From Tritrichomonas musculus (lineage: Eukaryota; Parabasalia; Tritrichomonadida; Tritrichomonadidae), in NCBI GenBank assembly GCA_039105265.1, contig JAPFFF010000013.1, positions 1,364,001-1,428,000 on the forward strand: a stretch of 64,000 nt of DNA, written 5' to 3'. A program made the translations under genes and the position numbers. The notes beneath the pieces were generated by a model. The model saw nothing but the letters and a program-made list of their open reading frames with translations, was not told where the DNA came from and searched no databases. Shown piece by piece: positions 18,634 through 56,930 of this stretch. Every line of letters begins with the position of its first letter. The stretch's first letter is position 1.

Positions 18634-18987
18634 TTAGGCCTTATTTTTTTTACATCACAAATACTATAAACGTCTTTTTAACGTATTTTTTCATAAAATA
18701 ACGATTTTTTGATTTGTAGTATCAATGAAACTTTTTGAATACGAATAAATTTTTTTTTATTTTATGAAGAATCAAAAATTATATTATTTAATTTGAAAAA
18801 CATTTTACTATTTTATCTTTTTATTTTTAAATTATTTAAAACATTTTTAATATAAAAAAATAATTGTAGATCAAGATAAAAATAAAAAACTTATATCAAG
18901 AAAATAACGTATTTACAATTGTAATTACAATTGTAATTTTTAAACGGACAAGTTGTATACAATTGTAAATACAAAAACCAAGGCTTA
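18634..18987. mobile_element. 354-bp non-autonomous DNA element, 7-bp TSD, copy 1
   Basis: Ends are TTAGGCCTTATTTTT and, read inward from the right, TAAGCCTTGGTTTTT (imperfect TIR). The 7-bp sequence TATATTG flanks both sides (18627-18633 and 18988-18994). An inverted copy lies at 38029-38381 with its own, different 7-bp duplication. The interior has the palindromic TACAATTGTAATTACAATTG region. Confidence 0.85.
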
Positions 18988-23300: not shown

Positions 23301-23480
23301 TTAAAATTCTTTTATAAAATAATTTCCTTTTTCATCTTCAAGTAAAAAAGTTGGAAAATCTGAAAGCAAGATGCAATTAAAATCATCTGTTTTTACAGCT
23401 TGAATGATCTTTTCGATTTCAAAGCAATCATCATCTTCCTTTATTCTTCCGTACTCTTTAATAAATAGAGTATTCAGCAT
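23301..23480 (-). CDS. Small ORF overlapping the transposase stop, 59 residues
   Basis: Starts at the ATG at 23478-23480, overlapping the transposase stop in ATGCTGA, and ends at 23301. It reads MLNTLFIKEYGRIKEDDDCF and continues acidic and hydrophobic to GNYFIKEF. Coding-like composition suggests it is either the real C-terminus of the transposase displaced by a frameshift, or a second overlapping gene of the element. Pogo-family transposases often end in an acidic tail, which favours the frameshift reading. Confidence 0.4.
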   Translation of the reverse strand: MLNTLFIKEYGRIKEDDDCFEIEKIIQAVKTDDFNCILLSDFPTFLLEDEKGNYFIKEF

Positions 23481-24814
23481 TTTGATGATATTAAATTTTG
23501 TGTTCTCAATTGGCCTGGTAATGTCGGTAAGGTCAAGTTGTTTTGAATAGGCCTTTGTACATCTAATGGGAAAATACCCGTTTTTGAGAATCCGGATTCA
23601 ATATTTTCAAAAGTGCACGCAAGGTGTAAAGCTTTCTTGAAAGCGAATACCAATTGCTCTCTAATTTGTTGAGTAGTTTTTTTTGAAACAGATTGAAAAT
23701 CAATTTGTTGAATACCATCCCATTCAATATTAAAATCAATTTTGGATAACTCGATTTTTAAGTATGATTTTAAAGGCCCAGCCACTGAAACGTCAAAAGG
23801 TTGAAGAATATGAGTACAGTGGCTGGGTAGAACTAATAAATCTACATTAAATAAATTGAATATATAATTGGCCAGATAATTTTCACGCGATGAATGGCCG
23901 TCCACAATTAAGAGAACAGGTTCGTCTCTTAATTCATGTGGTAATTTTAATCTATAATGTGATAAAAAAGAACAAAAGTATATTGCATAAATTACAAAAC
24001 AGTCTTTGTTCATCCAACCGCTTGCTGTTGAAATAACAAAAGTGCTATCAATAAAATTTTCTATATTTCTCCTCGTTTTTTTATTTGGAAGAATTATAAA
24101 AGGATCCAAATTAAATCCATCGGCGCAAATGGTCACAACACCAGTAATATGAGGAAATTTCTGATTTTCGATCGTTATTGGAATTACTCCTTTTGGCGCA
24201 ATTACCTTTAATTTTCGGTTGGTATCGACCATGGTTTCATCCATGTTAAAGATGAGTTTCGGATTCCTGTTTAAAAGTAGCCAATTATCTGTAAAAAAGT
24301 TTTGAATGGATATCTGGTCGCATGAAAATCTCCTAACAAATTCCAAAGGTTGTGGATTGACACACCTCAAATTCAGCTGAAGAACGAAATGATATATCCA
24401 ACTTTGACAAGGTGTCTTTAAATCATCAAGGTGCTCAATCAATTTTGGGCAGCAGATTTGTGTTAATAATAAGGCAGCTTTTTTAATCCTCTGTTTTTTT
24501 AAATTAAAGGCCAAATTTGCAGCAATGATTGCGGGAATGCAATTTGAGAAATCAGCAGCCTCAGTTACATAATCTATAAAATATTGTTGATCGATTTTAC
24601 TAAGGTACACATCTGCACCACCTTCGTACCCTGGATACCAAATTTTAAACTGAGCTGTTCTTACAAGACATGTAACGAGAGCTGCATTCCCACTTAATTC
24701 ATAATCTAAAATAATTTTTTCATATGTTTTGCCCGATTTTTTCGCAAGAAATATTTCAACTTGAAGAATTGTTAAAAAATCATGTGTGGCAGCTGTAGCA
24801 AGTTCGTCAAACAT
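23474..24814 (-). CDS. DDE_1 transposase, pogo/Tigger/CENP-B-like
   Basis: 446 residues, uninterrupted. The DDE_1 catalytic core is clear: NMDET with D192, LLIVDGHSSR with D305, then LPSHCTHILQPFDVSVAGPL with D341. The N-terminal 170 residues include 'KKSGKTYEKIILDYEL' and 'AANLAFNLKKQRIKKAALLL', with a helical DNA-binding character like CENP-B HTH modules, though shorter than usual; an upstream exon could be missing. It catalyses cut-and-paste transposition in the nucleus. It lies between the two 850-bp inverted arms and within the AGGGCGTAC-bordered element. Intact reading frame and catalytic residues suggest a recently active copy, apart from the possible frameshift at its C-terminus. Confidence 0.85.
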   Translation of the reverse strand: MFDELATAATHDFLTILQVEIFLAKKSGKTYEKIILDYELSGNAALVTCLVRTAQFKIWYPGYEGGADVYLSKIDQQYFIDYVTEAADFSNCIPAIIAANLAFNLKKQRIKKAALLLTQICCPKLIEHLDDLKTPCQSWIYHFVLQLNLRCVNPQPLEFVRRFSCDQISIQNFFTDNWLLLNRNPKLIFNMDETMVDTNRKLKVIAPKGVIPITIENQKFPHITGVVTICADGFNLDPFIILPNKKTRRNIENFIDSTFVISTASGWMNKDCFVIYAIYFCSFLSHYRLKLPHELRDEPVLLIVDGHSSRENYLANYIFNLFNVDLLVLPSHCTHILQPFDVSVAGPLKSYLKIELSKIDFNIEWDGIQQIDFQSVSKKTTQQIREQLVFAFKKALHLACTFENIESGFSKTGIFPLDVQRPIQNNLTLPTLPGQLRTQNLISSKC

Positions 24815-38028: not shown

Positions 38029-38381
38029 TAAGCCTTGGTTTTTGTATTTACAATTGTATACAACTTGTCCGTTTAAAAATTACAATTGTAATTACAATTG
38101 TAAATACGTTATTTTCTCGATATTAGTTTTTTATTTTTATCTTGATCTACAATTATTTTTTTATATTAAAAATGTTTTAAATAATTTAAAAATAAAAAGA
38201 TAAAATAGTAAAATGTTTTTCAAATTAAATAATATTATTTTTAATTCTTCATAAAATAAAAAAAAATTATTCGCATTCAAAAAGTTTCATTAATACTACA
38301 AATCAAAAAATCGTTATTTTACGAAAAAAGACGTTAAAAAGACGTTTATAGTATTTGTGATGTAAAAAAAATAAGGCCTAA
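38029..38381. mobile_element. 353-bp non-autonomous DNA element, 7-bp TSD, copy 2
   Basis: Reverse-orientation copy of 18634-18987. Here the flanks are ACTCAAT at 38022-38028 and 38382-38388, so the insertion is independent and the 7-bp duplication is confirmed for the family. Confidence 0.85.
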
Positions 38382-40152: not shown

Positions 40153-40504
40153 ATATGGAAGAAAAACTCTATTTTTAGATTTTTTTTTAAATATATATTT
40201 CCCAGAAATTAATTTAGGTCAGAGAGTAAGGGTGTCCGTTTGGAGGGGGAAAAAATGACCCCCTCGTCATAGGGTTTACAGACCACAAACCTCAGCCCCA
40301 TGACTCATAAAATCGCCACTTTTTCAAAAATAGCCCTCGAAACTTTCACAAAATGGCATAGACAAATTTTGAATAAATTGACGATCTCCCAAAAATAACA
40401 ACAACGAAAAATCGAACTTTCATAAGAGACCAAAACGACGACATGCGACACGAAGACCTGAGGCTAAAAAACAAAATTAATAATATTTTTATTTTTGTCT
40501 TTCC
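40153..40504. other. Non-coding, G/C-rich patch with hairpin
   Basis: GAGGGGG-aaaaaatga-CCCCCTC at about 40239-40262 is a perfect hairpin. Its CCCCCTCCAA word is shared with the termini of the 19976-21384 element, so it may mark a transposon end on the MULE side. From about 40255 rightward the composition changes to A- and C-rich, which continues into the next genes. Confidence 0.45.
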
Positions 40505-40637
40505 ATTAGCGAACAACAACCAACGAACAACAACCAACGAACAACAACTAACGAACAACAACTAACGAACACAACTAACGAGCACAACTAACGAACACAA
40601 CCAACGAACACAACCAGCGAACAACAACCAACGAAAC
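40505..40637 (+). repeat. AACGAACA(AC)AACC tandem repeat
   Basis: About ten units of 12-15 bp such as CAACCAACGAACAACAAC lie directly upstream of the gene at 40688. Strikingly free of T and G-poor, so an RNA from it would be unstructured. Confidence 0.85.
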
Positions 40638-40687
40638 ACAATTAATGTGTTTTCGTTTAAACAATATTGTTTTTAATCGTTCTACAA

Positions 40688-41365
40688 ATGCAACCACAAA
40701 CGAATAACAACGAAAGACATGCAACAGAGGAACAAGGAACTATCGAAAACATTCGCGAACTCGATTACAGTATATCCGATAAAGAAGGTGTTAAGCTTCC
40801 TGTCTCTTACTTCTCTGCTAAATGTAAAACAAAAGCCGAAACACTGTTATATAACATTACAAGAATCCTAAACACTAACGATACAGCCGATATCGATTTT
40901 ACACTTGGTGGAACGAACAACAAAGAGCTTAAACCATTATGTTCCAGATTCTGCGACAACATTATAGTTTATTTTATAATATCCGAAGACGTTATAAAGC
41001 ATAATAAGACATTAACAAACTATATTAAATGTAAAGAAACAAACGACGATAAACAAGAGGAAGACAAAGAAGAGAGAAACAAAGAAGACAGGCAATTAAA
41101 TAGAGTTCTTAAAGAGATAGCACCGTTTCTTGCCAACAACACGGAACACATTAAAGAATTGTTTAATAAGTTCGATATACCAATTAACAAGACAAACATA
41201 AAGCCAACATCGTTTAAAGTTGATAAAGGAAACATTAAACAGTTTATTAAAGTATCTCTACCAGACGCACCGTTAGATAATATTCTTAGTATTGTATGCA
41301 GTAAAGAGATAATTAAAGAGTTTAACAATAATGGAATCTTTATAAACGATATCGATATTACATAG
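40688..41365 (+). CDS. Unknown acidic protein, first gene of the helicase locus
   Basis: I prefer the second methionine (40688, MQPQTNNNERHATEEQG) over the one at 40667, because the first seven residues are hydrophobic AT-rich filler. That leaves about 225 residues. There is no signal peptide or membrane span. A highly charged segment (DDKQEEDKEERNKEDRQ) lies near 118-135, followed by a C-terminal helical domain ('LNRVLKEIAPFLANNTEHIK', 'ELFNKFDIP'). Codons favour AAC and GAA, differing from the AAT/GAT-rich use of typical genes here and of the helicase gene downstream. I do not recognise the family. Position, strand and spacing suggest it belongs with the helicase (41962) and the small gene (43639). 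Confidence 0.6.
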   Translation: MQPQTNNNERHATEEQGTIENIRELDYSISDKEGVKLPVSYFSAKCKTKAETLLYNITRILNTNDTADIDFTLGGTNNKELKPLCSRFCDNIIVYFIISEDVIKHNKTLTNYIKCKETNDDKQEEDKEERNKEDRQLNRVLKEIAPFLANNTEHIKELFNKFDIPINKTNIKPTSFKVDKGNIKQFIKVSLPDAPLDNILSIVCSKEIIKEFNNNGIFINDIDIT

Positions 41366-41405
41366 GATTACAGTGGAACCATTAGCAAGAAGGATGTAGT
41401 AGTAA

Positions 41406-41459
41406 TGTTAAGGGTGGCTCCGAGCTAAAGCTCTCCGCTACACGCTTCGCTCCTTAACA
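41406..41459 (+). other. Strong hairpin between first gene and helicase
   Basis: TGTTAAGG at 41406-41413 pairs perfectly with CCTTAACA at 41452-41459, and inside them GAGCT-aa-AGCTC forms a second stem. GC-rich in an AT-rich region. Could be a transcription terminator, RNA-processing site or replication structure. Shares the word GAGCGAAGCG (on the other strand) with 32730-32740. Confidence 0.55.
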
Positions 41460-41720
41460 GATATACCATATAGCTATGGCACATTCTACTATATAAGGTC
41501 GTCCATTTGTGCCGTCCATAGCGTTATGTCCATATTATGATTTACATGAAAATAAGCTCAAATAAGCAATTATAGCTCTAAATTAACATGATGGAGTACA
41601 TCCAATGAACTATCCAGGCATCCAATAGATCAATAATTATGTTAATAATAATATTAATTGAAACAGTCCGCTTATAAATATAGATGATTTAATATGTTAT
41701 AGCTACCAAAACATATAACA
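41460..41720. other. Intergenic, precedes iteron array
   Basis: Contains short direct words (CATCCAAT twice at about 41609-41632) and a degenerate iteron-like TTGAAACAGTCCGC at about 41658. No gene. Confidence 0.4.
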
Positions 41721-41923
41721 TTAGATGGAAATGATTTCTAGATTGAATTAAATGGAAACAATCCGGCTAATAAAACATATAATAATACCAACTATCTCAT
41801 TAAATGGAAACAATCCGGCTATCGATTAAATGGAAATGATCTCTAGATTGAATTAAATGGAAACAATCCGGCTATCGATTAAATGGAAATGATCTCTAGA
41901 TTGAATTAAATGGAAACAAGTCC
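41721..41923 (+). repeat. Iteron-like direct repeats upstream of the helicase gene
   Basis: Seven copies of the core TTARATGGAAAYRA start at about 41721, 41748, 41800, 41826, 41853, 41879 and 41906, so the spacing is 26-27 bp (one slot, about 41774, is missing). Two versions alternate: TTAAATGGAAACAATCCGGC and TTAAATGGAAATGATCTCTA. The array ends about 40 bp before the helicase start. This is the layout of initiator-binding iterons at a replication origin, or of an autoregulatory promoter. Confidence 0.75.
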
Positions 41924-41961
41924 AGTTGTCCCAAAATATATATTTTTTAATTTTGTCCCAA

Positions 41962-43605
41962 ATGTCCCAATATCTCGAATCCACTTTGTTTGACACCATT
42001 CCAGTATCTACTTATAAGATATCGATTACTAAGCAAGATATTACTAATGAAATAGTATTCGATACATGCAAATTTATATTAGATGCGCCAATTGGATCTG
42101 GTAAGTCGACAGCATTGATGAATCATATTAAAGACAGCAAAGATAATAATTATATAATTATTGTTCCCACTACCAATATTGCTGTTGATTTCTATAATGC
42201 AGTTGATTATAGTGAAGACTCTGTTAAGTTATGCACTAATGATGGCGCATTTAAAGACATTAAGTTAGCATTTGATAATAATGTTCGAGTGATCATCACT
42301 ACATATCACACAGCATCTAGATGTTTAGGTAGTATAATTGAGTTTACACATGGAAATCTACTTAATAAATATCATTTATTTATCGATGAAGCTCACTTAT
42401 TGTTATTACATCCAGCATTAATAGAGATGACCCGAGAATTTAATTATGTTGGACTTATTACAGCCACCCCCAGAGAATTAAAGCACCTGTCTGTGTTTAA
42501 AGATTATGTTACTATAAGTCCAGTAATAAGTACTCGCTATCATAGAAAGTTATATATTAATAAGTTGACTAATTTATCATTACAGTATCATGAAATAATT
42601 GAATTAGTTAAGACTAATATAAATGACTTTAATGCGATTATTATTAAGATTGAGGATAAGCATGAAGGCCGATCATTGAAAGAATTGCTTGTTAAAGAGA
42701 ATATTGGTGCATTATTGTATAATGGAGATAATAAAGAGACTGAGTTGATTAATGGCAGATTCGTTGATAAATCGAATGGTGATCCAATAATGAATAAGGT
42801 TGTTGTATGCACTAGTACGATACAAGATGGACAGTCTATTAATGATAATGTATTACAAATCTTCATACAGACACCCTTAGACAATTATTCCTCAGTTGAG
42901 CAGTTTATTGGTCGAAATAGATCTAGTAATAGTATCACCTACTTATTCCTTATTATTGATGGCGCATCTAATAAATCGATAAGTAATAATCTAGCAGACA
43001 GATACTATAATAGATTGCATGATACCAGAGTTAAAGCATGGCGTAATACAAATATAGATAAATGGATGAGAATATTAAATAAGCATGGGGAAATTATATT
43101 AAGCGATACACTATTAAATAAGATTAGTAATCCAGATGACAATGAAAATAAGCCAATTGAATTTAATAATGAATTGTATAATGAAAATATGTATAATGGT
43201 AAAGATCTTAATATTCGATTTAAGGGTAAAAAAGAGTTATACAGTTACTATGGTACCAAGATATTCCCACATCCTTATAAGATTATAATGAGCAAGAATA
43301 CATGTGATGATGGTAAGCGAGCTCGAATGTATAGATTGATTTATAATGAGAATGTTTCAATGATACCTGATTCCACAGACCTTAATACTAAAGCAATGGA
43401 ATCGAATGATAAGTCATCTACAGACAAAGCAGATAATGCTATAAGTGAATTTAATGGTAGATCCTTAAATGTTGAGTTTAGAGGTAAAAAAGAGTTATAC
43501 AGCTACTATGGCACCAAGATATTTCCGAATACACTTAAGATTAAAGAGATGCGACCTACAATTGATGGTAAGAGGGTCAGAAAATACATGCTTGTTTCCA
43601 TTTAA
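41962..43605 (+). CDS. SF2 helicase, herpes origin-binding-like, duplicated C-terminal domain
   Basis: The open frame begins at 41926 but the methionine at 41962 (MSQYLESTLFDT) is the likelier start. Numbered from 41926, helicase motifs are Walker A APIGSGKST (54-62), motif Ia IVPTTN, DEAH box IDEAH (153-157), motif III TATP (179-182), motif V-like VVCTSTIQDGQSIN and motif VI QFIGRNR (326-332), giving an active SF2 core. 'APxGSGKTTAL' with 'Q.IGR.R' is characteristic of herpes-type origin-binding helicases. Two copies of a 49-residue C-terminal domain follow (423-471 and 508-557), each with FKGKKELYSYYGTKIFP-type cores and 'DGKR.R.Y.L'. These may be DNA-binding modules for the iterons upstream. 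Likely role: origin recognition and unwinding for a plasmid-like or viral replicon. Confidence 0.8.
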   Translation: MSQYLESTLFDTIPVSTYKISITKQDITNEIVFDTCKFILDAPIGSGKSTALMNHIKDSKDNNYIIIVPTTNIAVDFYNAVDYSEDSVKLCTNDGAFKDIKLAFDNNVRVIITTYHTASRCLGSIIEFTHGNLLNKYHLFIDEAHLLLLHPALIEMTREFNYVGLITATPRELKHLSVFKDYVTISPVISTRYHRKLYINKLTNLSLQYHEIIELVKTNINDFNAIIIKIEDKHEGRSLKELLVKENIGALLYNGDNKETELINGRFVDKSNGDPIMNKVVVCTSTIQDGQSINDNVLQIFIQTPLDNYSSVEQFIGRNRSSNSITYLFLIIDGASNKSISNNLADRYYNRLHDTRVKAWRNTNIDKWMRILNKHGEIILSDTLLNKISNPDDNENKPIEFNNELYNENMYNGKDLNIRFKGKKELYSYYGTKIFPHPYKIIMSKNTCDDGKRARMYRLIYNENVSMIPDSTDLNTKAMESNDKSSTDKADNAISEFNGRSLNVEFRGKKELYSYYGTKIFPNTLKIKEMRPTIDGKRVRKYMLVSI

Positions 43606-43638
43606 TTACATAAATATTTAATTTATTTTTATATAAAA

Positions 43639-43962
43639 ATGGTAGAATTTTATGATGCAGATATTGGTATTAACAAATTAATTCATCTTAACTCTAAATA
43701 TGAACAAGATAGATATAATGAACTCATTAATGAGATAAAGAGATATAAAGCTGATAATGATAATAATGAGGCAGCTATAAATAGATTATATGCACGCTAT
43801 TATGGAAATGTATGTGATAAAGCTTATGGCAAGAGATATATTAACATGTGGAACATGAAAATGAGATTATTTGGAAAATTAGATGAATGGCAAATTATAA
43901 CTCATTTATTCAATTTTTTTAAAATAAAAAACGAATATATACATATAAATATCAATTATTAA
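43639..43962 (+). CDS. Small unknown protein, third gene of the helicase locus
   Basis: 107 residues, 33 bp after the helicase stop and on the same strand. MVEFYDADIGINKLIHLNSK is followed by a charged helical part ('YNELINEIKRYKADNDNNEA', 'INRLYARYYGNVCDKAYGKR') and an aromatic C-terminus. The codon style (AAT, GAT, AAG) matches the helicase gene. No family recognised. Aromatic and basic residues would suit nucleic acid binding, but that is a guess. Confidence 0.6.
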   Translation: MVEFYDADIGINKLIHLNSKYEQDRYNELINEIKRYKADNDNNEAAINRLYARYYGNVCDKAYGKRYINMWNMKMRLFGKLDEWQIITHLFNFFKIKNEYIHININY

Positions 43963-44021
43963 AATAGGTATTTGGATTTTAAATTAATATAATTAATTAT
44001 ATAATATTTAAATATAGCAAT

Positions 44022-45153
44022 TACACCCCGAGCTTATTACATTTTCAAAAATAAATATGTAATAAGAATTTTTTTTTTAAAAAAAAAGACGAGCTGCCAA
44101 ACGAACTTATGACCCTAATTAAAAAAATTATAAATAAGAGTATCTTGTTTAATTACAAATATATATATAAATAAAAAAATTATTTAAATTTATAATCTTA
44201 TACTTATCATATATTTATAATTTTTGTTCGAAAAATCAAAGATTTTTTCCTTATTACAGTATTTCTCAAATCTTATTACATAAATTGAAAAAGCCCAAAA
44301 TGTAAGAACATTAATTTTTTGGTTTTTAAACGATTAAAAATAATATATTTATTATTTAGAATATTCAAACATTTATATATATCAAAATAAATATAAAATA
44401 TTATATTAAACCATTTTATGATAGGAATAAATGGACTTTTTTATTACTTTAAAAATTGAAAGTAATTTATTATTATAAATATATAAATATTTTGGTTATT
44501 TATAGATATATAAGATTTTTTTTATGAAATTAATAATAATATTGTATTATAATTATAGATATTATGATTATTTAAAGCAAAATGTTCGGTTGAATTAAAA
44601 CGAAATTTGTCTTATTTTGAATCTTGATATTAATAATAAATGTTTTTATATATAATCTTAAATATATAAGTATATTGTGCAATTTAATTGTCGTGAGGAC
44701 AAAAAGATAATGCAATATATCCAATATTTTTGTAAAAAATACTATATAAAATACTCTGAAAATATATTTAAAGTATTGAATCCTTAAAGCAAAGTACTCA
44801 AACCTTAAAGCAAAAAGTATTCAATTATTTGACAAATAAAATAATTTCAATACTCCTTAAAGCAGGAGTATTGAATTCTTATTACAAGAGACTATTGAAA
44901 TTTCAGCCATATAAAACAAATTGAAAGGTCCTTATTACAGCTCGTTATTTTTGGAAAACGTTAAGTTTTTTTTATTAATTTTGTTAACCAAATTTTAATA
45001 TATATATATTAATATAAAGATAAATTTGTTAACCAAAAAACTAAAAAAAAAAACGTTTTTATTTTCATGAAATATGCTCTTTTTTGGCTTTTTGAATAAA
45101 TGATATTTTGATGTAATAAGAGCCGTTTAAAATAGACTTTAGCTCGGGGTGTA
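44022..45153. mobile_element. 1.13-kb DNA element with 8-bp TSD
   Basis: Termini TACACCCCGAGCT and AGCTCGGGGTGTA are perfect inverted repeats. ATAGCAAT flanks both sides (44014-44021 and 45154-45161). The word CTTATTACA or its complement recurs at least seven times, mostly near the ends, like subterminal transposase-binding sites. No transposase frame. An 8-bp duplication suggests hAT or Merlin-like. It inserted just after the small gene of the helicase locus. Confidence 0.8.
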
Positions 45154-45161
45154 ATAGCAAT

Positions 45162-47570
45162 TATATGCAAAAAGCTTTTTATATATAAGATATTCATTTT
45201 TTAGCATTCAATTAAATTCTTACAGATACAAATTTATAAAATATATTATTTAAAATAATAAATATATTAAATATTATCTATTTTTAAATTTATGAATATA
45301 TCAATATAATTATATAATAATATAAAAACTTTAATTATCTTGTAAATTATAGGATATAATTATTTTGAAAAAAAAAAGATTTGAGATAAAAAAATTAAGA
45401 AAATAATTTATCAAACACAGCAAAAAATAAAACAGAAAAAATTAATTTGAGATAAAAAGTTCAAAATTTTAAAAAATGAAAGGAAAAAAAATATGTCAGA
45501 GGAATTTGAAAGGAAAAATGGTGGTCTGCTTTTTGGTTTTAAGTTTATTCAATTGTAAAATTTTTGAAAAATTTATGATTATATTAGAGTATTCAATTTT
45601 GGGCTTTCAAAATAATAAAATAATAATTCTCATTAACTAATATTATTTTGATTACTTATCATCAATTTAATTCTTTTTTATTCAGAAAAATAATATACAT
45701 ATCGTTAAATTTACCAGGATATTGTTTATTTTTAAATTGAATACATTAATTCTTGTTTCAATGATCTCTCAATTGTTTTGAATTTTAAACCAAATATCTA
45801 AAATATATGCATTTTATATTAGTTTATTTATTCTTATACTTGCTTTATTAGATTGGGAATATAGTTTGTATTATTTCGAGCAAGATATTTTAGTTTTTTT
45901 AATTGAATGCATTTATTCTAATTTCAATGATCTCTCAATTATTTTCAATTCATAAAGAAAAGTAATCTTTTTCATCATTTGGTGCATATATTCATTTACT
46001 AAAATATGATATTTTATCATTTGATTTAGTGAAATACTTTATTTAATGATTTTTTGGTGGAGATATTATAATTTTTTATTTTGAATGTTTATTTTGCAAT
46101 TCTATGATCATTCAATTTTTTTCTGAGCTAATGTTTTTTTTCTTCAGAAAAATTGAGAGCGAAGGAAATAAAGACTTTGAGCAAAAAAGTGATGTAAAAA
46201 AACAATTCTTTCATCACATTTCATGATATGATAGAAGAAAGTAATAGATCTTGTGATTATATTTGTTATTAATGGAATATAAACATGTAACATCAATATC
46301 AAACACTTAAAATTTATTTTTGATTTCAATTTTGCGAATATTGGTTTCAATAACTCAGTTCAAAAGTCCTAGTATTCAATTTATGAGAAAAATATGCAGC
46401 TTCTGTGCAAAAAATATAATATAGGTATTGATCGGAATAAATAGATCTATTTGAAATACAAATTTGATTGTTTTTCTTTCAAAAAGCGAATAAAAACCGA
46501 TTTTTTTTCTAATAGCTATATTTAATAGTAAATATAAAATAAAAACATTTAACCAACTTATGAATTTATGTAAAAATGGTTTGTTTTAACAAAATTGTGA
46601 TAATTTCGATGTTTACTTCAATTTTTATTTGAAATTATTCATTTTTAACAAAAATTTAAAATATAATTATTGCGGAATTTTGAATTAATTAATATATTTC
46701 TTTTACGTAAAATATACTATAACATTTGCTTAACATTTAGATAATAAATATAAATATTATTATTACTATCAGTTTTTTAGATACTCCGAATCATATCTAT
46801 AAAAATAGTATATAAAGAAATAATTCAATAATTTTACATAGTTTTTCTTTTATCAAAAAGTGGAAATCAAATTTTATTATATTGATCATGAAAAACAGAA
46901 ATCATATAAATTTCTATATTATTTCTCGGAGGCATTATTTTTCAAATGTTCTCTATTAAAAAAGTGGAAAAAAAAAACATTTGAACAATATCAAAAAATG
47001 AGATCAAAAATTCAATTATTTTTTTTTTTTTTTCAATATTGAAACCATTTATTGTAAAGAAAAATTGAATTATTTCAAAATAAGATAAAAGTTCGTTATA
47101 ATATTGTTCTCAAACTTTGTTAGGATTTTGAGAGATAAATAAAATTTTTATTTGTTAGAAGGAAGTTTGAAATAAAATACGAACTTTGAGATAAATAAAT
47201 TAACGGCCGCCTTTCTTAACTATGAGGTATATTATCAAATTTCAAATTATTTATTAGGATGTAACTTAATAAATAAATTAAAAAATATATTTATATATAT
47301 ATATATAATATTACAAATTATAAATACTAAAATGCATTTATTTATAATGAAATATTAATGATATATATAAATATTTTCATAATAATTTATTTGATTCATT
47401 CAAATCATTTGAATTCACATGAAAATATTTTTTATTTATTAAAAAGATATTATATCTATTAATACATCTAAATATTACGAAAAGACTTTTTTAGCACATA
47501 TAATTTTCTGAATGTTTTTGATAATTCAATTTTTTTTTAAAAATTTCTGTGTAGTTAGAAACATTTTTTC
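45162..47570. other. Gene-free AT-rich stretch
   Basis: About 2.4 kb. A diverged repeat lies at 45736-46125. Short open frames (for example around 46150-46350 and 46860-47040) look like chance frames. No RNA gene seen. Confidence 0.5.
45736..46125 (+). repeat. Diverged tandem repeat, ~165-180-bp period
   Basis: 'AATTGAAT.CAT.AATTC..TTTCAATGATCTCTCAATT' occurs at about 45737 and 45899 and in weaker form at about 46080. Three decayed units. Confidence 0.5.
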
Positions 47571-51548: not shown

Positions 51549-52066
51549 CCGAGATGACGACATTGCCGCCCATAGCATGATCACGATCAGTAATGCTTAG
51601 CAGCTAGCTGGTTGTAACTGCGGCGAGTCGTCATCCGGACAAAGATATCGCGATTTCATCCGGAAGATCTGGAATGACGACATTGCCGCCCATAGCAAGA
51701 CCACGATCAGCAATGCTTAGCAGCTAGCTGGTTGTAACTGCGGCGAGTCGTCATCCGGACAAAGATATCGCGATTTCATCCGGAAGATCTGGAATGACGA
51801 CATTGCCGCCCATAGCAAGACCACGATCAGTAATGCTTAGCAGCTGGCTGGTTGTAACTGCGGCGAGTCGTCATCCGGACAAAGATATCGCGATTTCATC
51901 CGGAAGATCTGGAATGACGACATTGCCGCCCATAGCAAGACCACGATCAGCAATGCTTAGCAGCTAGCTGGTTGTAACTGCGGCGAGTCGTCATCCGGAC
52001 AAAGATATCGCGATTTCATCCGGAAGATCTGGAATGACGACATTGCCGCCCATAGCAAGACCACGG
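51549..52066 (+). repeat. 120-bp satellite array in left outer TIR (~4.3 units)
   Basis: Exact 120-bp period starting GACGACATTGCCGCCCATAG and ending ATCCGGAAGATCTGGAAT. Roughly 50% GC in a very AT-rich setting. Units differ by single bases (for example CAGCTAGCTGG versus CAGCTGGCTGG). Confidence 0.95.
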
Positions 52067-52262
52067 TGGCAATAAAAAGATGAAAATAAAACAAACAAAA
52101 AACAAACAAAATTGATTATTTAATATTATTATTACGATTTTTTAATTTTTTTATTTTGATAAAGCTTATTTAAAATATTCTGAGTCTTCTCAGAAATTTG
52201 TTAAATTTTTTTTTTTATAAATATATATAACTTTTTGAAAGAATTATGGTCTTTTTATATTT

Positions 52263-52394
52263 ATGGAAGAAGACCAAAATCTTTATTATTCAGCGAAATA
52301 TCTATCTCATACGCAAAGACCTAATTCTTTAAAAGATAAAGTTCTAAAATTTTCTTGTAAAGTTTTGAAAAAGTTCACTAAGATAAAACCATGA
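52263..52394 (+). CDS. 43-residue ORF: duplicated transposase N-terminus (left TIR)
   Basis: Begins MEEDQNLYYSAKYLSHTQRP and is identical to the first 26 residues of the transposase, then runs at 52341 into TIR sequence (KVLKFSCKVLKK) and stops at 52392-52394. The upstream sequence is the same as in front of the transposase, so it may be transcribed. Mirror copy at 55847-55978. Confidence 0.5.
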   Translation: MEEDQNLYYSAKYLSHTQRPNSLKDKVLKFSCKVLKKFTKIKP

Positions 52395-52438
52395 AAAAGC
52401 GCCATTTTTATAGAACTAAACCAATCAAAGAAACCGAG

Positions 52439-52702
52439 ATGACGACATTGCCGCCCATAGCATGATCACGATCAGTAATGCTTAGCAGCTAGCTGGTTGT
52501 AACTGCGGCGAGTCGTCATCCGGACAAAGATATTGCGATTTCATCCGGAAGATCTGGAATGACGACATTGCCGCCCATAGCAAGACCACGATCAGCAATG
52601 CTTAGCAGCTGGCTGGTTGTAACTGCGGCGAGTCGTCATCCGGACAAAGATATCGCGATTTCATCCGGAAGATCTGGAATTGACGATATTGCCGCCCATA
52701 GG
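52439..52702 (+). repeat. 120-bp satellite array in left inner TIR (~2.3 units)
   Basis: Same unit as 51549-52066, fewer copies. Begins right after the shared leader ending AACCGAGAT. Confidence 0.95.
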
Positions 52703-52869
52703 ACGACCACGGTGGCAATAAAAAGATGAAAATAAAACAAACAAAAAACAAACAAAATTGATTATTTAATATTATTGTGATTTTTTATTTTTTATTTTTA
52801 TTTTTTTTTTTTTTTTTTTTTTTTTTGATAAAGCTTATTTAAAATATTCTGAGTCTTCTCAGAAATTTG

Positions 52870-55212
52870 TTAAGAGAAAAATCTGTTACCACCTGCAGCT
52901 AAATCTGCATTTTTCCAACTTGCTATTTTGAATTTAGATAAAAAATATATGACACCTGAATTATCGCATCTAGTTTCAAAAACATAGCGGACAAAATTAG
53001 AAAAACATATTTTTTCGATATCATGATATGATAATTGAGGATACATTCCTTTAATTTCAGCCTTCGTTTCATAGTATTTTTTCTTAATTAATTCGATGTC
53101 AGCATTACAGTCTTTTATCATTGAATCAAAATTGTCATCTTCGTCGTATAAATTTTCAAGTTTTAATTTTTCTTTCTTTTGACTTGTGTTACTTTCTTCT
53201 TTCTTTTTTCTGAAAACCAATTTTTCATCAAGTGCTCGAAAATCAAAATGATTTCCAGAATATTTGGCATCATTTGGATTAATATTTGGGAATTTTGGTA
53301 AAACATATGTAAAACAATTAAGAAACTCATTAATAAAAGAGCCTAATATATTCAATGATTCCTTATCAAACTTTCTATTCTTTTCAACTTCGTATATTGA
53401 TATTATTCTATCTATATTTTTTCTATTTGATTTAAAAAGATTTTTTTCAAATTTATAATTGGGGAACTTTTTGAGAGATTGAACAAATAAATATTGAATA
53501 TCAATTTCATTGCTATTTTTAACAATATTAAATATTTCTGATTTGCAAAAATTATTTAATATTGTATGTATGCAAGGAAGTTTCACTCCATAAATTGATT
53601 CAACAAAATCATCTTCACCACAATCACAATTTTCTTTTGAACATTTTAAATAATTATCTGGTCTCTTGCTAAGAATTTGTATAACTTTTTGAATCATTTT
53701 TTGATGTTTGTTTTGAAAAGAATTTCCACAAATATCTGAGTAATTATTTATATAATTTAATAAATAATTTACAATTGTTGTGAAACCAGTTTTAAATGAA
53801 TGAGTTCCGGAATCTGGCAATTTTTGATTGATATTTCCGTGGAAACCTTCCGAATGATTTGAACAACGAGCTACATGGTGGTCAGAACGAATCCATATTG
53901 CCCAATTAGCAATATAATAATCACTTTTTTTAATTTCTTCTTTATTTGGCATTCTTTCCACTTCATCTATATCTTTTAACATAATTTCAAAATCTTTTAA
54001 TTTTTGTTTTTTTTCATTATCTTGATCGGTATCGTCAAATAAAGGTGAATTTGGATCTTTTTTATATTCGTCCATTTCAACTAAAATAAATTCTTTTTCT
54101 TGTTTATATATTAAATATGTTTTGCATCTCAATAACCTTGCAACCCATATGCCTAATGATGATTTAGGTCCAAATATTTGTATAATATGACGATGACAAA
54201 AATATTGAATATTTGAATGTAATTTACAGAACTTTTTGATAGGAGAACCTAAATCTGATAAAACAACTTTATTTTCAAAAACATTTTTATTTAAACAAAA
54301 CTTATTTAATCCATCAAATAATAAATTATATAAAAAACGGTTCTCTTTAGGGCCAATTGATAATGCGAAAGGAAAACTTGAATTGAAATAAATTGAATGG
54401 TATATACAAAATTTGTAAGGCTTAAGCGCATAAAAAGAAGCATCAATTTGCAAATAATGCATATAATTTATAACTTCTAAAGCCCAAGGCATAATCCATA
54501 TTATATTTTTAATAAAAGCAAAATCATTATTAAATTTAAATGCAAATCCATCGTCCTGAACTTTTTGAGTACTTATCTCAATATAAACAAAACCAGGTAA
54601 ATGCAATAAAATTTTATAAAAATCATCATAACCTTGAAAACTAACGGCTCTTCTACGCAAGGTTCTTTTATCTAAAAAGTTTTGAAAAGCAAATTTTATA
54701 AATATTGGAAAATTAGAATTTTTTCGAGCTACGTAATTACAAAAAGTATAAAGCATTGTATTTTTATGTTTACATTGTTTATTCCAAAAATCTTGAGTCA
54801 AAAAAGGACACTCTTTATTTTTCAAAGTATATGGCGACGTCATGATACATTCTTCAAAATCAATAGTAACAACTTTCATAGTTTGGTTTTCAAGGAGTTG
54901 ATCTCTAGCGAGAACTTTAATGGTTTCCAAATCGTTTTTGACAGTTATGCTAAATATTTGAATTTCAGTATTTATCTTTGATTTATTACAGCAACTAAAC
55001 GAAAAAATGTCATTATAAACTCTTTTGTTGTTGCATATAAATTCTTTGGTTAAGCTATCGAGGAAAAGGATTAGCGAAATGATATTGAAATTCTGAGAAT
55101 GCAAAGGAACAATTTCAATGAATGTTCTTAATCCTTTATCTTTTAAAGAATTAGGTCTTTGCGTATGAGATAGATATTTCGCTGAATAATAAAGATTTTG
55201 GTCTTCTTCCAT
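52870..55212 (-). CDS. MULE transposase, 780 residues
   Basis: Uninterrupted. The MULE DDE core is visible: LQIDASF (D257), VVLSDLGSPI (D320), then FCHRHI with the C/H pair (339-342) and RCSNHSEGFHGNIN with E455. The C-terminal SWIM zinc finger is CDCG...VKLPCIHTI (about 530-552). An acidic tail follows (DEDDNFDSMIKDCNADIE). The protein ends LAAGGNRFFS, with the stop falling right at the inner TIR border. It catalyses cut-and-paste transposition in the nucleus. The promoter lies within the TIR segment shared by all four TIR units (CTTTTTGAAAGAATTATGGT and onward). The first 26 codons are repeated in both outer TIRs. Confidence 0.88.
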   Translation of the reverse strand: MEEDQNLYYSAKYLSHTQRPNSLKDKGLRTFIEIVPLHSQNFNIISLILFLDSLTKEFICNNKRVYNDIFSFSCCNKSKINTEIQIFSITVKNDLETIKVLARDQLLENQTMKVVTIDFEECIMTSPYTLKNKECPFLTQDFWNKQCKHKNTMLYTFCNYVARKNSNFPIFIKFAFQNFLDKRTLRRRAVSFQGYDDFYKILLHLPGFVYIEISTQKVQDDGFAFKFNNDFAFIKNIIWIMPWALEVINYMHYLQIDASFYALKPYKFCIYHSIYFNSSFPFALSIGPKENRFLYNLLFDGLNKFCLNKNVFENKVVLSDLGSPIKKFCKLHSNIQYFCHRHIIQIFGPKSSLGIWVARLLRCKTYLIYKQEKEFILVEMDEYKKDPNSPLFDDTDQDNEKKQKLKDFEIMLKDIDEVERMPNKEEIKKSDYYIANWAIWIRSDHHVARCSNHSEGFHGNINQKLPDSGTHSFKTGFTTIVNYLLNYINNYSDICGNSFQNKHQKMIQKVIQILSKRPDNYLKCSKENCDCGEDDFVESIYGVKLPCIHTILNNFCKSEIFNIVKNSNEIDIQYLFVQSLKKFPNYKFEKNLFKSNRKNIDRIISIYEVEKNRKFDKESLNILGSFINEFLNCFTYVLPKFPNINPNDAKYSGNHFDFRALDEKLVFRKKKEESNTSQKKEKLKLENLYDEDDNFDSMIKDCNADIELIKKKYYETKAEIKGMYPQLSYHDIEKICFSNFVRYVFETRCDNSGVIYFLSKFKIASWKNADLAAGGNRFFS

Positions 55213-55411
55213 AAATATAAAAAGACCATAATTCTTTCAAAAAGTTATATATATTTATAAAAAAAAAAATTTAACAAATTTCTGAGAAGACTCAGAATAT
55301 TTTAAATAAGCTTTATCAAAATAAAAAAATTAAAAAATCGTAATAATAATATTAAATAATCAATTTTGTTTGTTTTTTGTTTGTTTTATTTTCATCTTTT
55401 TATTGCCACCG

Positions 55412-55800
55412 TGGTCGTCCTATGGGCGGCAATGTCGTCAATTCCAGATCTTCCGGATGAAATCGCGATATCTTTGTCCGGATGACGACTCGCCGCAGTT
55501 ACAACCAGCCAGCTGCTAAGCATTGCTGATCGTGGTCTTGCTATGGGCGGCAATGTCGTCATTCCAGATCTTCCGGATGAAATCGCGATATCTTTGTCCG
55601 GATGACGACTCGCCGCAGTTACAACCAGCTAGCTGCTAAGCATTGCTGATCGTGGTCTTGCTATGGGCGGCAATGTCGTCATTCCAGATCTTCCGGATGA
55701 AATCGTGATATCTTTGTCCGGATGACGACTCGCCGCAGTTACAACCAGCTAGCTGCTAAGCATTACTGATCGTGATCATGCTATGGGCGGCAATGTCGTC
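55412..55800 (+). repeat. 120-bp satellite array in right inner TIR (~3.3 units)
   Basis: Inverse orientation of the left arrays. The last unit has CATGATCACGATCAG-type variants next to the leader, as on the left side. Confidence 0.95.
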
Positions 55801-55846
55801 ATCTCGGTTTCTTTGATTGGTTTAGTTCTATAAAAATGGCGCTTTT

Positions 55847-55978
55847 TCATGGTTTTATCTTAGTGAACTTTTTCAAAACTTTACAAGAAAATTTTAGAAC
55901 TTTATCTTTTAAAGAATTAGGTCTTTGCGTATGAGATAGATATTTCGCTGAATAATAAAGATTTTGGTCTTCTTCCAT
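55847..55978 (-). CDS. 43-residue ORF: duplicated transposase N-terminus (right TIR)
   Basis: Mirror image of 52263-52394, same length and same junction after residue 26. Starts at the ATG at 55976-55978. Confidence 0.5.
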   Translation of the reverse strand: MEEDQNLYYSAKYLSHTQRPNSLKDKVLKFSCKVLKKFTKIKP

Positions 55979-56181
55979 AAATATAAAAAGACCATAATTC
56001 TTTCAAAAAGTTATATATATTTATAAAAAAAAAAATTTAACAAATTTCTGAGAAGACTCAGAATATTTTAAATAAGCTTTATCAAAATAAAAAAATTAAA
56101 AAATCGTAATAATAATATTAAATAATCAATTTTGTTTGTTTTTTGTTTGTTTTATTTTCATCTTTTTATTGCCACCGTGGT

Positions 56182-56930
56182 CGTCCTATGGGCGGCAATG
56201 TCGTCAATTCCAGATCTTCCGGATGAAATCGCGATATCTTTGTCCGGATGACGACTCGCCGCAGTTACAACCAGCCAGCTGCTAAGCATTACTGATCGTG
56301 GTCTTGCTATGGGCGGCAATGTCGTCATTCCAGATCTTCCGGATGAAATCGCGATATCTTTGTCCGGATGACGACTCGCCGCAGTTACAACCAGCTAGCT
56401 GCTAAGCATTGCTGATCGTGGTCTTGCTATGGGCGGCAATGTCGTCATTCCAGATCTTCCGGATGAAATCGCGATATCTTTGTCCGGATGACGACTCGCC
56501 GCAGTTACAACCAGCCAGCTGCTAAGCATTACTGATCGTGGTCTTGCTATGGGCGGCAATGTCGTCATTCCAGATCTTCCGGATGAAATCGCGATATCTT
56601 TGTCCGGATGACGACTCGCCGCAGTTACAACCAGCCAGCTGCTAAGCATTACTGATCGTGGTCTTGCTATGGGCGGCAATGTCGTCATTCCAGATCTTCC
56701 GGATGAAATCGCGATATCTTTGTCCGGATGACGACTCGCCGCAGTTACAACCAGCTAGCTGCTAAGCATTGCTGATCGTGGTCTTGCTATGGGCGGCAAT
56801 GTCGTCATTCCAGATCTTCCGGATGAAATCGTGATATCTTTGTCCGGATGACGACTCGCCGCAGTTACAACCAGCTAGCTGCTAAGCATTACTGATCGTG
56901 ATCATGCTATGGGCGGCAATGTCGTCATCT
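56182..56930 (+). repeat. 120-bp satellite array in right outer TIR (~6.3 units)
   Basis: Longest of the four arrays. Because 120 is a multiple of 3, one frame stays open across units (56395-56688, minus strand) and repeats a 40-residue peptide. I regard that as a by-product unless expression is shown. Confidence 0.95.

Follow-up and report, generated by a model that had tools for sequence, protein, structure and literature searches.

Two truncated mobile elements in a Tritrichomonas musculus contig, one of them related to helicase-bearing palindromes with Maverick-like ends

Tritrichomonas musculus is a protist of the mouse gut. We analyzed 64,000 nucleotides of its genome (C13:1364001-1428000, hereafter the window; assembly of 193.4 Mb in 746 contigs), in which three plus-strand open reading frames (ORFs), the middle one encoding a superfamily 2 (SF2) helicase, had been taken in a first-pass annotation for a single replicon. 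The three ORFs and the helicase were found as described there, and the annotation was right that a foreign element encoding an initiator-like helicase is integrated here; the stretch consists of two truncated mobile elements, A and B, and not of one replicon. ORF1 belongs to element A, the helicase gene and ORF3 to element B, whose copy in the window is a truncated, decayed member inserted in element A. Two other families contain the complete form of element B, which is a palindrome, nearly perfect and ~7-14 kb long, around a short unique center. We lean, slightly beyond an even chance, toward the view that element B is non-autonomous and depends on Mavericks, and that its palindromic genome encodes an SF2 helicase of its own; such an element would be loosely comparable to transpovirons.

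The boundary between the two elements is sharp. The sequence common to the window and other ORF1 loci stops at position 41397 in 11/11 loci examined (of 203 genome matches), and comparison of other element A loci with window positions 41398-46500 revealed no further element A sequence of at least 60 matching bases. From the other side, nine other copies of the helicase region match the window from 41390-41398 on; they open with AGTAGTAATGTTAAGG or a near variant, preceded by unrelated flanks, a further close copy (L019) matches from 41582, and a 75%-identical copy (L021/L022) comprises pieces matching from 41516. At one mismatch or fewer, AGTAGTAATGTTAAGG occurs at 78 genome sites compared to 16 for the reversed control. 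Since copies of ORF1 and of the helicase share window sequence on opposite sides of 41397/41398, a three-gene replicon was rejected, as was an origin between ORF1 and the helicase ORF suggested by their opposite codon skews, because the two belong to different elements. The genome matches of ORF1 (93-96% identity) sit in open frames of up to 927 aa, and the full gene encodes 826-950 aa, of which ORF1 represents about the first quarter; it stops where the longer copies continue, and element B begins 32 bases further on, which places element B inside the element A gene. Six other A copies start aligning at 40211-40250, each with different flanks, and close agreement with other B copies stops at ~43871, followed by loose alignment at 43877-43897. 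What had been delimited as one element is thus two, both truncated.

The search for helicase genes in T. musculus covered 79 of 563 candidates, and the helicase counts given here are lower bounds. At least 85 matches were found, merging to at least 77 genes or fragments. Neighboring helicase genes up to 20 kb apart are convergent in 12/12 pairs (~0.6 pairs expected by chance), and a match to a small gene lies within 10 kb of at least 42 of the 77 (1.2 expected). Three convergent pairs were read across, two from other families (C30 and C8) and one from the window family (C38). The C30 palindrome (C30:80626-94229) comprises two 6,646-bp arms, 100% identical, around a 312-bp center, and the C8 palindrome (C8:2595180-2602144) comprises arms of ~3,399 bp, also 100% identical, around a center of ~169 bp; the C38 pair is degraded, with the second helicase truncated and 95-96% identity over ~1.4 kb. 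In the palindromes, a helicase gene reading inward is located by each end, and the small gene lies nearer the middle. The latter encodes 78-140 aa and accompanies the helicase in three families; the C30 version is ~28-34% identical to those of the two remaining families, which reach 83% at best when compared with each other; ORF3 was found only in the window family among the three families compared. A 206-aa gene occupies the C30 center, and neither this nor the 90-aa ORF of C30 gave a capsid match in Pfam, a comparison that included no search aimed at capsids. Terminal inverted repeats (TIRs), reported as absent in the first-pass annotation, are thousands of bases long in complete copies of the other families. 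In the 45%-identity family (family 2), exact 5-bp target-site duplications (TTACC, ATATA, AAAGT, GTGGT, GTTAT) flank 5/5 elements with both ends available, and the arms of these five are 99.8-100% identical over ~3.25 kb. The family-2 helicase is under strong purifying selection, the pooled pairwise ratio of nonsynonymous to synonymous differences (pN/pS) being 0.086 in six copies selected for having no stop. Convergent ends of the B type, or similar ones, also occur 2.2 and 1.7 kb apart (C28:1737686-1739901 and C29:579699-581413), possibly as miniature derivatives. At the other extreme, convergent pairs spanning 21.6 kb on C9 and C27 are candidate Mavericks with the window-family end.

Copies of element B have AGTAGT at their ends, and complete ones of other families have TIRs starting with AG and short target-site duplications, as do Maverick/Polinton elements; the window copy lacks its right end. 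For comparison, we fully read one Maverick of 24.8 kb (C9:156170-181011; L042-L044, L060), which has AGTAGT ends, a 264-bp TIR, and TATGA on both flanks as a 5-bp duplication, and which encodes a DNA polymerase (DNA_pol_B_2, E=1e-34) and an ATPase of the Pox_A32 type (E=1.2e-5) and contains a match to the rve integrase (E=2.6e-5) under the curated cut-off. Two further ORFs match an HNH endonuclease (PF13392, E=1.7e-7) and DUF3839 (E=8.8e-34). Its TIR aligns with the family-2 end at 71.6 bits, whereas none of 100 shuffles exceeded 22.9, and over the first 90 bp it shows 80% identity with the end of the family-2 palindromes; the likeness of the C8 element end is limited to AGTAGT. The family-2 terminus, AGTAGTATAGTATAGGC, has 376 genome sites, compared to 2 for the control. 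Among the first 100 of these, 31 convergent pairs less than 60 kb apart were found, of which 16 span 22.9-25.4 kb and five 10-16 kb; among the matches listed, helicases are convergent in two of the five, a third contains just one, and the remaining two contain none.

The gene content of the palindromes connects them with the Maverick at a single point: the 206-aa ORF in the C30 center has a homologue among the Maverick ORFs (29%, E=5e-18). When 22 ORFs of the C9 Maverick (at least 100 aa) were compared with the A and B stretches, this was the only gene matched inside the C30 and C8 palindromes, where no match to the Maverick integrase or polymerase was found, and the helicase family matched none of the Maverick ORFs of at least 40 aa (positive control 748 bits). 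Matches to the Maverick polymerase at C30 are confined to the flanks, which are two parts of one polymerase gene, so that the palindrome interrupts that gene; the C16 palindrome apparently interrupts another Maverick ORF. Site-specific targeting of the polymerase gene was considered and rejected, as a Maverick gene flanks 4/11 family-2 elements and differs among the four (polymerase, 244-aa ORF, 578-aa ORF, and ATPase). A Maverick gene was present in 0/10 window-family flanks, L019 and L021-L023 being left out. Between two convergent helicases 39 kb apart at C2:1406712-1447523, two ends of the Maverick type delimit 26.9 kb, so that a Maverick may have inserted into a B palindrome there. The element had been set apart from Mavericks in the first-pass annotation; one B family nevertheless has the Maverick end, the duplication length, and one gene.

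We propose that element B most likely lives as linear DNA with protein-primed ends and would rely for its copying on DNA polymerase B provided in trans by Mavericks of the same genome; the template would be opened or unwound by the element's own helicase. Adenovirus employs a jump-back start at CATCAT, and by analogy AGTAGT would suit such a start. Element B may then enter the chromosome via the Maverick integrase. The long complementary arms could allow displaced strands to fold into hairpins or panhandles, by which, we suggest, the arms would stay identical. Dependence on Mavericks, the linear episome, protein priming, and Mavericks as the source of polymerase and integrase are what we infer from these likenesses, and the window family presumably once had the same palindromic form. 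Element A, host of the window copy, appears to have relatives that also form inverted pairs: ten inverted ORF1 pairs, ~17-20 kb apart, are present among the matches listed, and the arms of one (C29) are 99.3% identical over 2,767, 98.7% over 6,269, and 92.8% over 1,596 bases. A wider reading, which we hold as possible but short of probable, is that these elements form a new class of palindromic eukaryotic satellites parasitizing Mavericks, with their own plasmid-type SF2 initiator helicase, borrowed polymerase, integrase, and perhaps capsid, and swappable lead genes (the helicase in B, the 826-950 aa protein in A).

Several observations weigh against Maverick dependence and a palindromic genome. 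No complete palindrome was seen in the window family, with C38 its sole inverted pair, and we therefore hold this view less firmly. The window-family end shares with the C9 Maverick AGTAGT only, the best alignment (18.4 bits, from a slice that started 10 bases outside the end) lying within the shuffle range, and the Maverick comparisons all refer to that one fully read element. Only 24 of the 77 helicase genes lie in close inverted pairs, and 35 have no small gene nearby among the matches listed. The flanks of the 7-kb C8 element match over 4 bp, not 5; in the window family, pN/pS is 0.61 (seven copies), at which purifying selection is not clear; and the free linear form is a prediction from assembled sequence.

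Database profiles were compared with 44 members of the helicase family. In Pfam, DEAD matched 41/44, ResIII 34/44, and PF02399 2/44 (best E=6.8e-4) members; in NCBIfam, the Cas3 core matched 17/44 (best E=6.3e-9), DpdF 11/44 (best E=9.3e-5), CyRepA1 8/44 (best E=3.1e-11), and dnd_restrict_1 2/44 (best E=6e-4), and in PHROGs, phrog_16 "DNA helicase" matched 21/44 (best E=6.2e-12). The window helicase itself scored 20.5 bits against CyRepA1, for which the curated cut-off is 200. In profile alignments (hhalign), made without an unrelated SF2 profile as control, eight CyRepA1 proteins gave E=6.7e-8 over 265 columns and one CyRepA1 protein on its own E=0.017 over 44 columns; a helicase from Clostridium tarantellae (L001) aligned in its helicase core over 270 columns (E=5.1e-10). 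Among the few PDB matches listed, an anti-phage protein came first (E=0.0024-0.014), followed by origin-binding proteins (E=0.13-0.22). Homologues were listed in 43 cases among 8,000 scored candidates, the longest contig being 1.5-3.7 kb for 39 of them. An origin as a prokaryotic or phage element was rejected, as no match was found in phages, plasmids, or viral contigs, and a single distant one in a Clostridium helicase; a plasmid search with P0033 as query, and plasmid and phage searches with the Clostridium helicase, yielded nothing. As judged from these sequence comparisons, the best reading is that the helicase is probably a distant relative of plasmid (CyRepA) and herpes-type initiators.

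Kinship of this kind, together with the number of homologues, the strong selection on the family-2 helicase, and window-family ends that match the C9 Maverick in AGTAGT alone, would also fit a separate lineage of viruses or linear plasmids that has its own way of integrating and resembles Mavericks through convergence or gene exchange. We regard such a lineage as unlikely, because family 2 has a ~90-bp end and one gene in common with the Maverick, and because the 206-aa gene, as the sole match of 22 Maverick ORFs in C30 and C8, leaves these palindromes without an integrase or polymerase of the Maverick kind. The same shared ends, duplication length, and gene could be expected of a non-autonomous Maverick derivative that arose by internal deletion, captured a helicase with no role in copying, and became palindromic by an error of repair or replication. 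That account appears improbable: the helicase and the small gene persist in three divergent families, with the low pN/pS of family 2, which is hard to explain without a helicase function, and the C9 Maverick has no such helicase.

Two further explanations have little to recommend them. Base-identical arms are also what would be expected if foldback long reads had been built into contigs, but the flanks of the palindromes differ and yet end in matching 5-bp duplications (5/5), and at C30 they are the two parts of one Maverick polymerase gene; an assembly artefact is accordingly very improbable. A family of SF2 helicase genes belonging to the host, perhaps by domestication, would be genomic and multi-copy, as observed, but the genes are located in mobile elements that have exact ends and are flanked by duplications, and we give this explanation hardly any credence.

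The features of the window copy are listed in Table 1. The window helicase matches DEAD (E=4.1e-8) and ResIII (E=2.5e-7) in Pfam and contains a "KKELYxYYG...GKRxRxYxL" module in two copies at its C-terminus. Compared with other window-family copies, it has four private amino-acid changes, one of them in motif V, where six other compared copies are uniform, and two silent ones. Codon use had been described as unlike that of neighboring genes, which is the case for the helicase, whose G share at purine-ending codons is 0.48 (0.09-0.41 in 13 other window ORFs), but not for ORF1, which is within the range of the other window ORFs. The seven repeats of ATTARATGGAAA on a 26/27-bp period before the helicase were confirmed; 0.26 matches would be expected by chance across the whole window, and an eighth is located at 43595 on the minus strand. 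Their conservation beside helicase homologues holds for the close family only, as no 26/27-bp array or other direct repeats were found upstream of the helicase at two family-2 loci, and the C8 element (third family) has a single two-copy 23-nt repeat and no 26/27-bp array. The strong hairpin that had also been reported was not confirmed: of the stretches folded, the three lying within the three-gene region or directly before it did not surpass shuffled sequence (z 0.12, -0.69, and -0.40), and a fourth, beyond the end of the region (43990-44120), gave a z of -2.21.

Table 1. Coordinates of the element A and element B features identified in the window.
Feature	Position	Strand	Description
Element A fragment	40221-41397	+	Left end approximate; right limit is the point of interruption
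14-bp tandem array in element A	40510-40635	+	Tandem Repeats Finder (TRF), 9.3 copies, 92%; absent from the first-pass annotation
ORF1	40688-41365	+	225 aa; N-terminal part of the 826-950 aa element A protein
Element B fragment	41398-43871	+	Starts 5'-AGTAGTAATG; left terminus to truncation within ORF3
Element B terminal sequence AGTAGTAATGTTAAGG	41398-41413	+	Corresponds to C13:1405398
ATTARATGGAAA x7	41720-41916	+	26/27-bp step, one step skipped; 53-bp higher-order unit
SF2 helicase	41962-43605	+	547 aa; motifs APIGSGKST, IDEAH, QFIGRNR
ORF3	43639-43962	+	107 aa; C-terminus altered; homologues 89-92 aa

In element A, the 14-bp array is longer in the window than elsewhere, as five other A copies skip ~40534-40616 in the alignment. 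Two long copies of the 826-950 aa protein gave no match in Pfam. A ~90% identical copy of 40217-40412 is located outside the C8 palindrome (L037), indicating that element A left ends are scattered through the genome, and in P0046 an ORF1 homologue is in frame with what appears by eye to be a mariner-type transposase end, i.e., a piece of element A adjoining a mariner copy. Elsewhere in the window, two arrays of 120-bp units (51554-52711 and 55410-56928), mutually inverted by consensus, flank a 780-aa ORF (52870-55212, minus strand) that resembles by eye a transposase of the Mutator-like element (MULE) type but has no Pfam match at E<=0.01, possibly forming a transposon with tandem-array ends. 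Inverted repeat copies at 38029-38381 and 18634-18987, which share 97% identity over 354 bp and contain a palindrome, likely represent a small dispersed transposon, and a DDE_1 transposase ORF (PF03184, E=1e-10) is located at 23474-24814.

Mavericks are regarded as endogenous viruses. Elements that combine Maverick ends with nothing but a helicase and small genes would be satellites of Mavericks, a counterpart to virophages and transpovirons. The identical-arm palindromes are relevant to the copying of these linear DNAs, and a helicase that resembles plasmid initiators but occurs outside bacteria is relevant to where herpes-type initiators came from. Mavericks account for about a third of some trichomonad genomes, with 34% in T. 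foetus (PMC10120064).

Palindromic or non-autonomous Mavericks were not described in the literature searched, most subscription journals and all preprints lying outside it, nor were elements of the B type, including in the accessible parts of PMC10120064, PMC10899382, and PMC7031253. Transpovirons, 7-kb linear DNAs associated with mimiviruses and virophages, are alike in their small size, TIRs, conserved helicase with a few unknown genes, tandem repeats, and virus-like helper (PMC7031253). They differ in TIRs of 380-520 nt, compared to thousands of bases in the B palindromes, and in a helicase assigned to superfamily 1 by a title in the reference list of that paper (PMC7031253), whereas the B helicase belongs to SF2 according to Pfam DEAD/ResIII; moreover, they have a free form, whereas element B is seen as integrated DNA, and the two are likened by description, not sequence. 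The CyRepA1 replication proteins of cyanobacterial plasmids share the helicase core but have a long N-terminal part without a counterpart in the B helicase; the score is far under the curated cut-off, and fewer members match CyRepA1 than the Cas3 core. The C. tarantellae helicase, encoded on a contig that appears plasmid- or prophage-like by eye, shows 25% identity, is longer (802 aa) with an extra N-terminal region, and itself has no CyRepA1 match. Herpes-type origin-binding proteins (PF02399), with which the helicase had been compared, are alike in the Walker A region; the PF02399 matches are weak, and the window protein is not among the two members concerned. The phage DNA helicases of phrog_16 are a general helicase family, which the window protein did not match at E<=0.01. 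Iteron plasmids have repeats beside the initiator gene, as has the window family, but this arrangement is not kept among relatives of other families. Foldback elements likewise combine inverted repeats of great length with tandem repeats inside them, and differ, by description, in that the B arms contain protein genes and the duplications are integrase-like. Maverick/Polinton elements resemble element B in AGTAGT ends, a 5-bp duplication as in the C9 Maverick, and one gene in common, and in family 2 only in the first 90 bp; unlike them, element B has a genome that is almost all inverted repeat and a helicase absent from the C9 Maverick, and the rve integrase and protein-primed polymerase that mark Mavericks found no match within the C30 and C8 palindromes. 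We place element B within a known kind, the non-autonomous, helper-dependent elements, in a new variation, with a real chance that it represents a new class.

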